Assembly: GCA_026418195.1 (NCBI GenBank)
Contig: JAOABU010000137.1
Span: 1 to 52,565 of the forward strand
Length of the DNA stretch: 52,565 nt
Direction: 5' to 3'
Origin: Spirochaetota bacterium
GTDB lineage: Bacteria; Spirochaetota; Spirochaetia; DTKZ01
Both the position numbers and the translations under genes were made by a program. Of this stretch, positions 20,380-48,476 are shown piece after piece; position 1 is the stretch's first letter; each line of letters starts with the position of its first letter. A model generated the notes under the pieces. The model was not told where the DNA came from. It did not search any database and saw only the letters and a program-made list of their open reading frames with translations.

Positions 20380-20691
20380 AGTACACCTCCTCTTCCATTA
20401 GGGTATGCCCTCCAACAGAGGACAGAAACTATTTAGCAATAAATATGCCAATCAGCGCGAAAAACTACGACTAAGAATTGGCAATCTGCCTATTTCATTT
20501 AGAAACATAGACTTGTTTAACAACTAATGTTCAATTTCCCTCACATCCTGTTTTTTTCCCTCTTACTCTAAAGTGTATCATTATGCTACATAGGGTCAAT
20601 AGGCTATCTCTAATAGATCAATTTGACACACTTAAATGTGTGACCATCCCAATGGTTGATCATCTGTTACCAAACGAGTACCATCTCATCC
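20380..20691. other. Divergent intergenic region between hsp20 and the pyrophosphatase
   Basis: This 312-base gap contains no convincing ORF. It holds the sigma-54-type promoter of the hsp20 pair, the palindrome TTGTTTAACAA (20513-20523), and CACAC-TTAAAT-GTGTG (20627-20642), which sits just after a TTGACA and could be an operator or small hairpin in the pyrophosphatase leader. No CIRCE element (TTAGCACTC-N9-GAGTGCTAA) is present. Confidence 0.5.
20433..20451 (-). promoter_or_regulatory. Sigma-54-type promoter ahead of hsp20 pair
   Basis: Minus strand reads TTGGCATATTTATTGCTAA: GG (-24) and GC (-12) are separated by exactly 10 bases, as sigma-54 requires. The predicted start (about 20424) leaves a leader of about 45 bases before the first hsp20. 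It differs from the glnN promoter at 48457-48476 by only about two bases. A palindrome TTGTTTAACAA at 20513-20523 could be an activator site. Confidence 0.6.
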
Positions 20692-22335
20692 ATGATTTAT
20701 GTTTCTGGCCACAAGAATCCCGACACGGATTCAGTATGTGCGGCTTACTGTTATGCTCGCTTTAAGAACATGGTAGATCCGTCGGGGACCTACCTTCCCG
20801 TGCGTTGCGGAGCCCTCAACTCTCAAGTAAAATACCTTTTCCGGTTTCTTAACCTAGAACCACCTGTGCTTTTGCCAGACATTTTCCCCAAAGTAAAAGA
20901 TGTAGCCCGTAGGGATCCTATAAAAATCGAGGAAGATGAACCTGTCCGATTTGCTATCGATCTATTGGATTCTCACAATATCAGTGTGCTTCCTGTCTTC
21001 TCGTCATCAGGAATTTTTAAAGGGATTGTCTCAATCCATGAGATTAGCCAATTTCTCCTTTCGGAAAGTTCGAACCATCGACCAGCTTACACTTTCCGAC
21101 CGGAAAACTTTCTAAAAGTATTTCCAGGGCGGTGCATAAAGCGCGGTGACTTTCAGGAGTTTCAGGCACCCCTTATGATCGGTGCCATGCCGTATGAAAC
21201 GAGCATACGAAGAATTGAAGCCCTGCTACCTCAGAAACCTCTATTAGTAGTAGGGTTAAGGGAAGATCTGCTCCAGTATGCTCTCTTAAAGGATCTTCCA
21301 ACGATCGTTCTCACAGGGGTGGAAAACCCTGCACATCTTCCCCTAGATCTATCCAAGTATCGTGGATGGATATTTATTTCGGACATCGATACAGCAGAAA
21401 CCGTACGTTTACTCCGCCTCAGTATCCCTGTACGATGCATCATGAATCCCAACCCCATTCAGATAGACGGAGAAGAACGATTTGAAACAGCACGGGATAT
21501 CCTAGTGAACTCGCAGTACCGAGGCCTCCCGGTTTTCCTCGAAGGATCCTTCTACGGAATCGTAACTCGCAGATGTTTCATCCATCGCCCCACCCAACGA
21601 TTGATTCTAGTGGATCACAATGAGTTGAGCCAAAGCATCCCTGGAGCTGAGCATGCGGAAATCCTGGAAATCATCGACCATCATCGAATTGCTCCTGAAA
21701 AGACCCATAAACCCATTTACATGTATGTCAAACCTGTTGGAAGCACCTGCACCCTAATCTATGAACAATTCCAAATTTTTCACATTCCCATTTCAAGAGA
21801 AATAGCCATTCTCCTGTTGGGAGGAATCCTTGCGGATACGGCTCATTTTCGATCCCCTACAACGACAAACCTTGATAAAGAAATTGCTTCTGCTTTAGCA
21901 CGAATCGGAGGAGTAGATGTAGATTCCTTCGGAAAAGAACTCCTTTCACAGGCTCACGATTTACTGACAGCCGATTTGAGCCAAATTGTCCAATCGGATT
22001 TCAAGACCTATGCAGAGTCCGGTATCAAATTCGGCATTGGACAAGTCGAGGTGGTTTCCTTCGATAGTGTAAAAGAGGTAAAGGATCGACTTCTCGCAAT
22101 CATGGAAGAGACTCGGCAAAACCAGCAGTTAGACTGGGTCCTCCTGATGATCACCAACGTTCCTAAAGAATCCAGTCTTCTTCTCTCGACGAACCATCCG
22201 AAACTAGAACGGCTTCTCATCTTTTCCAAGATAGACGAGCATATGTATGATTTGCCGGGGGTTCTTTCCCGAAAAAAACAGCTCCTCCCTGAGATCTTGC
22301 AGGTGCTGGAATCCCAATCTCGCTCTAGCGCTTGA
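20692..22335 (+). CDS. ppaC: Family II manganese inorganic pyrophosphatase with CBS and DRTGG domains
   Basis: A 547-aa enzyme that hydrolyses pyrophosphate. DHH-type metal motifs: GHKNPDTDS at the N-terminus, then LVDHNELSQS, IDHHRI and PVGSTCTLIYE, ending in the DHHA2 domain. Inserted between the first motif and the rest are a CBS domain (about 70-115), a DRTGG-like segment (about 170-235) and a second CBS domain (about 245-300). Such inserts make the enzyme sensitive to adenine nucleotides in characterised relatives. Length and order match CBS-PPases with DRTGG rather than the short form of about 310 aa. I chose ATG 20692 because the family N-terminus starts MIYVSGHKNPD; it lacks a strong ribosome binding site and TTG 20656 is an alternative. 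Confidence 0.93.
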   Translation: MIYVSGHKNPDTDSVCAAYCYARFKNMVDPSGTYLPVRCGALNSQVKYLFRFLNLEPPVLLPDIFPKVKDVARRDPIKIEEDEPVRFAIDLLDSHNISVLPVFSSSGIFKGIVSIHEISQFLLSESSNHRPAYTFRPENFLKVFPGRCIKRGDFQEFQAPLMIGAMPYETSIRRIEALLPQKPLLVVGLREDLLQYALLKDLPTIVLTGVENPAHLPLDLSKYRGWIFISDIDTAETVRLLRLSIPVRCIMNPNPIQIDGEERFETARDILVNSQYRGLPVFLEGSFYGIVTRRCFIHRPTQRLILVDHNELSQSIPGAEHAEILEIIDHHRIAPEKTHKPIYMYVKPVGSTCTLIYEQFQIFHIPISREIAILLLGGILADTAHFRSPTTTNLDKEIASALARIGGVDVDSFGKELLSQAHDLLTADLSQIVQSDFKTYAESGIKFGIGQVEVVSFDSVKEVKDRLLAIMEETRQNQQLDWVLLMITNVPKESSLLLSTNHPKLERLLIFSKIDEHMYDLPGVLSRKKQLLPEILQVLESQSRSSA

Positions 22336-38299: not shown

Positions 38300-38400
38300 A
38301 GAACACCCCCTTACAAAACAAGTATAGGTTCCATCAGTGGCATTTCCAAGAAGATTCGCCATCTTTCCCAACCTTCCCTTTTCCATATACCATTCCGGGT

Positions 38401-40305
38401 ATGGTAACGAAACCTATCCACGTGGTAATCGTGGCCCCGAACCAGGGATTGGCGCTTACCGCCCGACAAACGGCCCTTAACTTTTCCGCAGAAGAATCCT
38501 GTAAGATCCAGGTTGTGCAGGGAGACCTACGGGAAGGGTTGGAAAAAGCGCAAGAACTTTTAACGAGTGGGGTCGATGTGTTTATCAGTCGAGGAGGTAC
38601 AGCCACCCTATTAGCGCAACAGTTGGAAGTCCCGGTAGTGGAAATTCGAGTAAGTGCAATGGATGTCCTTCGGTCCATGAGATCTCTCATTGGAACCGCA
38701 CAACACATTGCCGTTATTGGGTTTCCCAACATCTGTATAGGTTTGTCCAGTGTGGGAGAGCTAGTGGGGTTGAAGATTGAAGAACTAGTTCTCCAATCCG
38801 AATCGGAAGCAAAAGAGATCATCCTTTCCGCCTACCAACGAGGGATTCGCTGCATGGTAGGGGATACGGTTTCTGTTCGAGAAGCTCGAGCGATGGGAAT
38901 GGTAGGCTACCTCATTGAATCGGGTGGGGAAGCCATCCGGAGCGCTTTGCAGCAAGCCATTCAATTGGTGAAAGTGCAAAGGAAGGAACGGGAACGAACC
39001 GCATTATTTAAAGCGGTGGTGGATAGTTCCCGGGACGGCATTATAGCAGTGGATTCTCAGGGGGTGATTACTGTCTGTAATTCCCTTGCGGAAACTCTGT
39101 TTGGACTGGATGCTAAATCGGTGATTGGGAAACCTGTATCCCATGCTCTCATGCATCCAGCTTTAAGAAAAGTGTTTGCCGAAAAAGATCATCCGGGGGT
39201 GGATGTCATCAAAATCCAGGGGAAATCTATTGCGGTGGAACGTTACCCCATTCTTATGGAAGGGGAGCCAATGGGGATCGTGGCATCCTTCCAATCGGTA
39301 GGGAAGGTACAGGAGTATGAACTCCAGGTTCGGAACAAGGTATTTCAGCGAGGTCTGGTAGCCCGAGCCACGTTGGATTCCATGATCGCTCGCTCCAAAA
39401 AGATGATGGAGGTAAAGGAAAAAGCCCTTCGGTTTGCTTCTCTTGGATCCACCATTCTCCTGTCTGGGCCTACTGGTGTGGGCAAGGAGATGCTTGCCCA
39501 GAGTATCCACAACCTCTCACCCCACCGGTTTGGTCCGTTCGTAGCGATCAACTGTGCGGCCCTGCCAGAGAACCTCCTAGAAAGTGAACTGTTCGGGTAC
39601 GAGGAAGGAGCTTTTACAGGAGCCTTGAAAGGGGGCAAACCCGGATTGTTCGAGCTAGCTCACAACGGAACCCTATTTTTGGATGAGATTTCTGAAATGT
39701 CCCTCTCCTTACAGGCAAGAATTCTACGAGCCATGCAGGAACGGGAAGTACTCCGAATAGGGGGGTCCTCCATGATCCGGGTGAATGTCCATATCATTGC
39801 GGCTACCAACAAGGACCTCCGAGAGTTGGTACAGAAGGGAGCGTTTCGAGAAGACTTATACTATCGGATCACGGTGCTGACCCTCTATGTACCTCCTCTA
39901 CGAGAACGCCCCGAAGACATTCCCCCTCTTGCTCTGCACTTCTTGCATCGCCTTGCTTCCCAACATCCGGGTCCAAACACCTTCACTCCCGATGCAATGG
40001 AACTGCTCCTCCAGTATTCCTGGCCAGGGAATGTGCGAGAGCTTGCTTCTGTAGTGGAACGAGCCTTCTTTTCCACGCGGGAGCCTCAGATCGATCGCAC
40101 GATTCTAAAAGAGGCTCTGATTCCTTCTTTTCCAAAACCAGAAACACATCTTTTCGCCTCCAGAACCAGAGATCTCAAATCCCTGGAACTAGAAGCTATC
40201 CGAAATGCCTTGGAAGAAGAGGGCTTTCATGTAAGCCGGGCGGCCCAACGATTGGGAATCGATCGTAGCACTCTATGGCGCAAGTTAAAGAGAACAAGAG
40301 GGTAA
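38401..40305 (+). CDS. PrpR-type sigma-54-dependent activator of cassette C
   Basis: A 634-aa enhancer-binding protein. Domains: PrpR_N sensor (about 5-185), PAS (about 200-300), AAA+ ATPase (about 325-560) with Walker A GPTGVGKEM, the sigma-54-contacting GAFTGA loop (EGAFTGALKGG), Walker B GTLFLDEISEM, and a Fis-type helix-turn-helix at the C-terminus (HVSRAAQRLGIDRSTLWRKL). Relatives sense organic acids through the N-terminal domain. A sigma-54 promoter lies about 220 bases downstream of its stop, before the kinase-larA-TRAP genes, and a perfect palindrome at 40305-40323 is a likely binding site. I infer it activates that operon when the acid or its CoA/phosphate product is present. Confidence 0.95.
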   Translation: MVTKPIHVVIVAPNQGLALTARQTALNFSAEESCKIQVVQGDLREGLEKAQELLTSGVDVFISRGGTATLLAQQLEVPVVEIRVSAMDVLRSMRSLIGTAQHIAVIGFPNICIGLSSVGELVGLKIEELVLQSESEAKEIILSAYQRGIRCMVGDTVSVREARAMGMVGYLIESGGEAIRSALQQAIQLVKVQRKERERTALFKAVVDSSRDGIIAVDSQGVITVCNSLAETLFGLDAKSVIGKPVSHALMHPALRKVFAEKDHPGVDVIKIQGKSIAVERYPILMEGEPMGIVASFQSVGKVQEYELQVRNKVFQRGLVARATLDSMIARSKKMMEVKEKALRFASLGSTILLSGPTGVGKEMLAQSIHNLSPHRFGPFVAINCAALPENLLESELFGYEEGAFTGALKGGKPGLFELAHNGTLFLDEISEMSLSLQARILRAMQEREVLRIGGSSMIRVNVHIIAATNKDLRELVQKGAFREDLYYRITVLTLYVPPLRERPEDIPPLALHFLHRLASQHPGPNTFTPDAMELLLQYSWPGNVRELASVVERAFFSTREPQIDRTILKEALIPSFPKPETHLFASRTRDLKSLELEAIRNALEEEGFHVSRAAQRLGIDRSTLWRKLKRTRG

Positions 40306-48456: not shown

Positions 48457-48476
48457 TTTGCAATAATTATGCCAAC
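48457..48476 (-). promoter_or_regulatory. Sigma-54 promoter of glnN
   Basis: Minus strand TTGGCATAATTATTGCAAAA has GG and GC exactly 10 bases apart (48472-48473 and 48460-48461). The predicted leader is about 35-40 bases. Sigma-54 control of glutamine synthetase fits nitrogen regulation. Confidence 0.8.

Follow-up and report, generated by a model that had tools for sequence, protein, structure and literature searches.

Two small heat-shock genes, hsp20A and hsp20B, encoded in the stretch of Spirochaetota DNA analysed here (52,565 nucleotides, the window) are preceded by a predicted sigma-54 promoter and a pair of palindromic enhancers, and comparison with other members of the class Spirochaetia leaves this combination strongly supported. 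A model comprising a working sigma-54 promoter, tandem enhancers, an activator resembling Rrp2 and a common regulon is, as a whole, considered probable with good confidence. Rrp2 is the regulator that switches on virulence genes in Lyme-disease bacteria. Under the proposal, Rrp2 would gain a DNA target as well as an ancestral function; a class-wide regulon, an enhancer and an activator are put forward for spirochaete small heat-shock genes, whose control would be expected to lie with CIRCE, sigma-32 or thermosensors. Coordinates are collected in Table 1.

Table 1. Features of the hsp20AB locus in window coordinates.
Feature	Position	Strand	Basis
Sigma-54 -24/-12 promoter TTGGCATATTTATTGCTAA of hsp20AB	20433..20451	minus	Exact TGGCAYN5TTGCW match
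Predicted transcription start	20423..20424	minus	12-13 nt past the GC, from sigma-54 geometry
hsp20A, small heat-shock protein, alpha-crystallin domain, 150 aa	19927..20379	minus	PF00011, E 9.6e-26
hsp20B, second small heat-shock protein, 118 aa	19542..19898	minus	PF00011, E 2.5e-21
CCTCTGTTGGAGG, near the 5' end of the predicted mRNA	20409..20421	minus	Folding; not significant here
Enhancer site 1, promoter-proximal, 17-bp palindrome, TGTAGCATAATGATACA on the minus strand	20574..20590		19.2 bits, palindromic PWM
Enhancer site 2, distal, TGTGTCAAATTGATCTA on the minus strand	20614..20630		16.2 bits, palindromic PWM

In TTGGCATATTTATTGCTAA, the GG occupies 20449-20448 and the GC 20437-20436, separated by ten nucleotides, and the exact GG-N10-GC spacing claimed in an earlier note on this DNA is thus present as described. 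The near-identity to the glnN promoter claimed there stands in so far as the site resembles TTGGCATAATTATTGCAAA, but the likeness is that of the sigma-54 consensus itself. The gene glnN, which from its position and its label in the earlier note we take to encode a type III glutamine synthetase, has an exact site of its own, TGGCATAATTATTGCA, located 48 nt upstream on the minus strand (window 48459-48474) and devoid of the Hsp20 enhancer. The start codon of hsp20A is situated 56 nt downstream of TTGGCATATTTATTGCTAA, and hsp20B follows after a gap of 28 nt, both genes presumably residing on one transcript; Hsp20 genes also form tandem pairs in many relatives.

The draft genome (3.13 Mb) contains a single copy of rpoN with an open frame of 471 aa. 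The exact 16-mer pattern TGGCAYN5TTGCW was found 14 times vs. four times for the reversed pattern, and all 14 sites are located upstream of an open reading frame in sense orientation, mostly less than 60 nt away. The genes behind them include hsp20AB, a third hsp20 gene (hsp20C on C27, 41% identical), glnN, transport genes, a CheY-like gene and a gene of the sigma-70 family, while no sigma-54 site was found for grpE of this genome.

Among the Spirochaetia, the best Hsp20 gene is preceded by a sigma-54 site (no more than one mismatch, up to 250 nt upstream) in 26 of 28 genomes, half of these sites being perfect, whereas dinucleotide shuffles yielded a mean of 0.12 and a maximum of two sites. 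The same applies to 18 of 21 further Hsp20 copies and to all of eight additional Spirochaetia genomes. The antisense strand of the Hsp20 upstream regions, when scanned, contained no such sites, and in the control with grpE from the same genomes a single site (1/30) was found, at -447. Both the promoter ahead of two hsp20 genes and the wide, little-studied mode of control suspected in the earlier note are supported, the latter as a nearly universal trait of the class. When 53 Hsp20 promoters of Spirochaetia are aligned, GG and GC are invariant, TGGCACG is strong and TG is kept at the expected start; the T and G at the start predicted here correspond to this class-wide TG (alignment columns 26-27), which is suggestive with respect to a sigma-54 start site. 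The initiator-like region TTAGTGAA that is kept around the predicted start in these promoters exceeds the usual needs of sigma-54 promoters. The gene rpoN is present in 40 of 41 relatives, and in one of the Borreliaceae (G046) the hsp20 sigma-54 site remains with one mismatch. Outside the Spirochaetia, Hsp20 sigma-54 sites were found in 11 of 32 Spirochaetota, and the scanned deltaproteobacterial relatives, Geobacter among them, gave none. Within named collections, uncultured Spirochaetota are the closest relatives.

Upstream of the -24 element, expectation-maximisation yielded a 17-bp palindromic consensus, TGTGTCATAATGACACA, with a log-likelihood of 381 vs. 28-39 for shuffled sequence. Its two occurrences ahead of hsp20A are the only matches in the window; site 1 begins 140 nt upstream of the -24 element, and the spacing of the two sites is exactly 40 bp. 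Scored with a PWM trained on the very Hsp20 promoters that were then assessed, TGTGTCATAATGACACA reaches at least 14 bits in 49 of 52 Spirochaetia Hsp20 promoters as compared to 0.1% of shuffles and one of 29 grpE regions. Among 51 secondary sites, 20 are exactly 40 bp and 41 are 39-45 bp away from the best site. Changes within TGTGTCATAATGACACA are often symmetric (TGAGTCA-TGACTCA, TGGGTCA-TGACCCA), which is the pattern that a dimer site would show. In same-genus relatives both palindromes, the -24/-12 element and the leader from the start site onward are kept while most other sequence has diverged. Eight further Spirochaetia gave at least 14 bits in only two and at least 11 bits in six cases, and scores were lower in Treponemataceae and other genomes added later. 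Genome-wide, just four sites have at most one mismatch to the degenerate palindrome, two at hsp20AB and one each at hsp20C and at a sigma-70-family gene on C118, while none of the remaining 11 exact sigma-54 promoters in this genome scores above 9.2 bits. The two kept palindromes thus represent the putative upstream activator sites of the sigma-54 promoter. The palindrome TTGTTTAACAA proposed in the earlier note for this role does exist at 20513-20523, with about 0.7 window matches expected by chance at one mismatch; it was rejected as an enhancer because it occurs in this species only and is missing from two same-genus relatives, in which the TGTGTCATAATGACACA pair is kept instead. A divergent gene for a DHH/CBS/DRTGG pyrophosphatase-like protein (window 20692-22335, plus strand) has its likely start within 120 bp of both Hsp20 enhancers, which could affect it as well.

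The enhancer-bearing gene on C118 encodes a secondary sigma factor of the sigma-70 family (302 aa); the observation refers to G000 C118:12640-12655, loci L014 and L235, and to relatives L249-L278. Genes of this type are preceded by a sigma-54 site in all of 30 Spirochaetia relatives and by the Hsp20 enhancer in 21 of 25 scanned, and the latter result checks the enhancer model independently, as no promoters other than those of Hsp20 genes went into that model. Comparison of genomes thus shows hsp20AB, hsp20C and the C118-type sigma gene as one predicted regulon, and with the enhancer common to Hsp20 and secondary sigma genes, one dedicated activator appears to be shared. A different group of sigma genes, the C133b type, which groups with RpoS of the Borreliaceae, is preceded by a sigma-54 site in each of five genomes (L357, L360, L361, L363 and L365), and no enhancer of the Hsp20 kind was found in the five genomes scanned; two secondary sigma genes of the Spirochaetia hence look sigma-54-controlled, one of them with the Hsp20 enhancer. 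Borrelia RpoS was considered as an orthologue of the regulon sigma factor and rejected, as the tree places Borreliaceae RpoS, on long branches, with the C133b type.

The activator had been called unknown in the earlier note and now has a candidate, the identity of which we infer: an EBP (sigma-54 activator) orthologous to Rrp2 is likely to act on the Hsp20 enhancers, as judged from its distribution, its linkage and the conservation of its HTH. Orthologues of the Rrp2 type are present in all 41 of 41 genomes (56-98% identity, best paralogues at most 53%), the recognition helix hardly varies within the Spirochaetia, and in 16 genomes the gene is located within about 13 kb of the C118-type sigma gene. 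In the genome under study, C63:11717-13108 is the orthologue of the EBP from relative G019 (64-65% identical) and lies directly behind a gene for a soluble PAS histidine kinase. The order murG-cvpA-holB-HK-EBP recurs in Borreliaceae genomes, from which only one member of this EBP family was recovered. A REC-AAA-HTH_8 protein with GAFTGA beside a soluble PAS histidine kinase has the architecture of HK2-Rrp2, and we equate the C63 protein with Rrp2 on the basis of gene order and the published position of hk2 just upstream of rrp2 (PMC1976401). The G019 genome (1.7 Mb) encodes a single EBP, other matches being weak (E ~1e-7 or worse), and an hsp20 gene with two strong enhancers; its rpoN is frameshifted once in the draft sequence, the RpoN box being preserved in the other frame, so that an argument from one activator needs either a sequence error or a recent break. 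Another EBP, encoded in the window itself (38302-40299, plus strand) and equipped with PrpR_N, PAS, Sigma54_activat and HTH_8 domains, was discarded as activator, being of the PrpR_N-PAS type and not of the universal family.

According to the proposed mechanism, an NtrC-family activator, most likely the Rrp2 orthologue on C63, would bind the two TGTGTCATAATGACACA palindromes as dimers, and both palindromes would lie on one face of the DNA since 40 bp correspond to about four helical turns. Having assembled there, the activator would loop over some 130-180 bp to the sigma-54 polymerase at -24/-12 and melt the promoter through ATP hydrolysis. The same combination of enhancer pair and sigma-54 promoter would serve hsp20C and the sigma-70-family secondary sigma gene, and small chaperones and a secondary sigma factor would form one stress regulon kept across the Spirochaetia. 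Binding as dimers and hexamers, looping and the identity of the activator are elements that we infer; heat as inducing signal is plausible from the gene products alone.

Promoter and enhancers might also function as proposed under a different EBP, e.g., one of the C6 or C131 families, with the Rrp2-like protein controlling something else, and we regard this as unlikely. Altogether 17 clear EBPs are available in this genome, Borrelia Rrp2 is reported to act on rpoS without needing an enhancer (PMC1976401), and in relative G018 a gene of the C6 family resides immediately upstream of hsp20 in the same direction, which is the main hint contrary to an Rrp2-like activator. However, orthologues of the C6 family are absent from G022 and G019, the hsp20 enhancers of which are perfect or near-perfect, the C131 family is less uniform in HTH and presence, and it is the Rrp2-like gene that lies near the enhancer-bearing sigma gene in the 16 genomes mentioned.

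It appears quite improbable that the -24/-12 element is real while heat-shock induction proceeds mainly via a second, sigma-70-type promoter or an RNA element, with sigma-54 as a minor input of the sort proposed for ibpB of E. coli. The AT-rich region upstream of hsp20A can hold sigma-70-like boxes, and in the same-genus relative G002 the counterpart of CCTCTGTTGGAGG forms a strong hairpin in the 5' UTR (z -3.5). This CCTC-GAGG hairpin was dismissed as a control element as it is strong in G002 only, and the hsp20A leader of the species studied here folds no better than shuffles (z 0.11). Searches of the window for CIRCE (TTAGCACTC-N9-GAGTGCTAA) at up to three mismatches gave no hit, and no relevant Rfam match to a ROSE or fourU thermosensor emerged even at E 5, in agreement with the absence of CIRCE and ROSE-type elements asserted before; the blocks kept among same-genus relatives likewise argue for the sigma-54 promoter and its enhancers. 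That TTGGCATATTTATTGCTAA is nothing but a chance motif in an AT-rich intergenic region has a vanishingly small probability. Loose matches are indeed plentiful, with 184 GG-N10-GC motifs at three mismatches in the window vs. 159 expected, such that the motif alone is weak evidence, but the 14 exact vs. four reversed sites, all ahead of genes, the 26 of 28 relatives vs. 0.12 and the coupled enhancers already refute this reading.

The Rrp2-RpoN-RpoS system of Borrelia burgdorferi shares with the one proposed here an orthologous NtrC-type EBP, a histidine kinase encoded upstream and a sigma-54 promoter on a secondary sigma gene. It differs in that the predicted targets here include small heat-shock genes with tandem enhancers and that the regulon sigma factor falls outside the Borrelia RpoS clade. 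In Borrelia, a cytoplasmic histidine kinase is encoded just upstream of rrp2, and Rrp2 is reported to be required for growth by virtue of another function (PMC1976401, PMC12472547). An exact sigma-54 site precedes rpoS in the Borreliaceae, and the absence of an Hsp20-type enhancer from its scanned vicinity agrees with the reported enhancer-independent action of Rrp2 (PMC1976401). We lean toward the view that HK2-Rrp2-RpoN descends from a class-wide stress regulon with tandem TGTGTCATAATGACACA sites, of which Borrelia would have kept the activator and its DNA-binding helix and lost the enhancers. In a member of the Borreliaceae (G027; L229, C1:471000-475500) rpoN is broken and hsp20 lacks a sigma-54 site, while the HK-Rrp2 pair remains and rpoS retains its sigma-54 site; the genome was not accepted as a natural rpoN knock-out, because with the rpoS site in place rpoN may have been lost not long ago, and the genome carries little weight as evidence.

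Sigma-54 control of a small heat-shock gene has a parallel in ibpB of Escherichia coli, for which a sigma-54 promoter and dual sigma-32/sigma-54 control have reportedly been described; here, in contrast, the sigma-54 promoter is the only recognisable one, and defined tandem enhancers common to a secondary sigma gene occur class-wide. A passage in a 2025 survey predicts sigma-54 for a heat-shock COG cluster that includes IbpA (COG0071) and is enriched in Planctomycetota and Bacteroidota, naming another chaperone-class COG (COG0533) for Spirochaetia (PMC12316311), and to that extent predicted sigma-54 promoters ahead of the Hsp20 family as such are a shared feature and not new. What is new within the open-access literature, as far as found, is the class-wide regulon, the enhancer and the likely activator, and the open-access papers searched yielded no account of spirochaete Hsp20 genes being controlled by sigma-54. 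Several Hsp20 loci of Brocadiales and other Planctomycetes (L144, L146, L147, L151, L159, L168-L170 and L174) are preceded by sigma-54-like sites, positioned at roughly -80 to -92 relative to the coding match; unlike in Spirochaetia, the TGTGTCATAATGACACA enhancer was not found at these promoters. Classical NtrC-type promoters such as that of glnA combine paired palindromic upstream sites with a -24/-12 element, and the hsp20AB promoter differs from them in its new recognition sequence, TGTGTCATAATGACACA, and in the 40-bp spacing of the pair.
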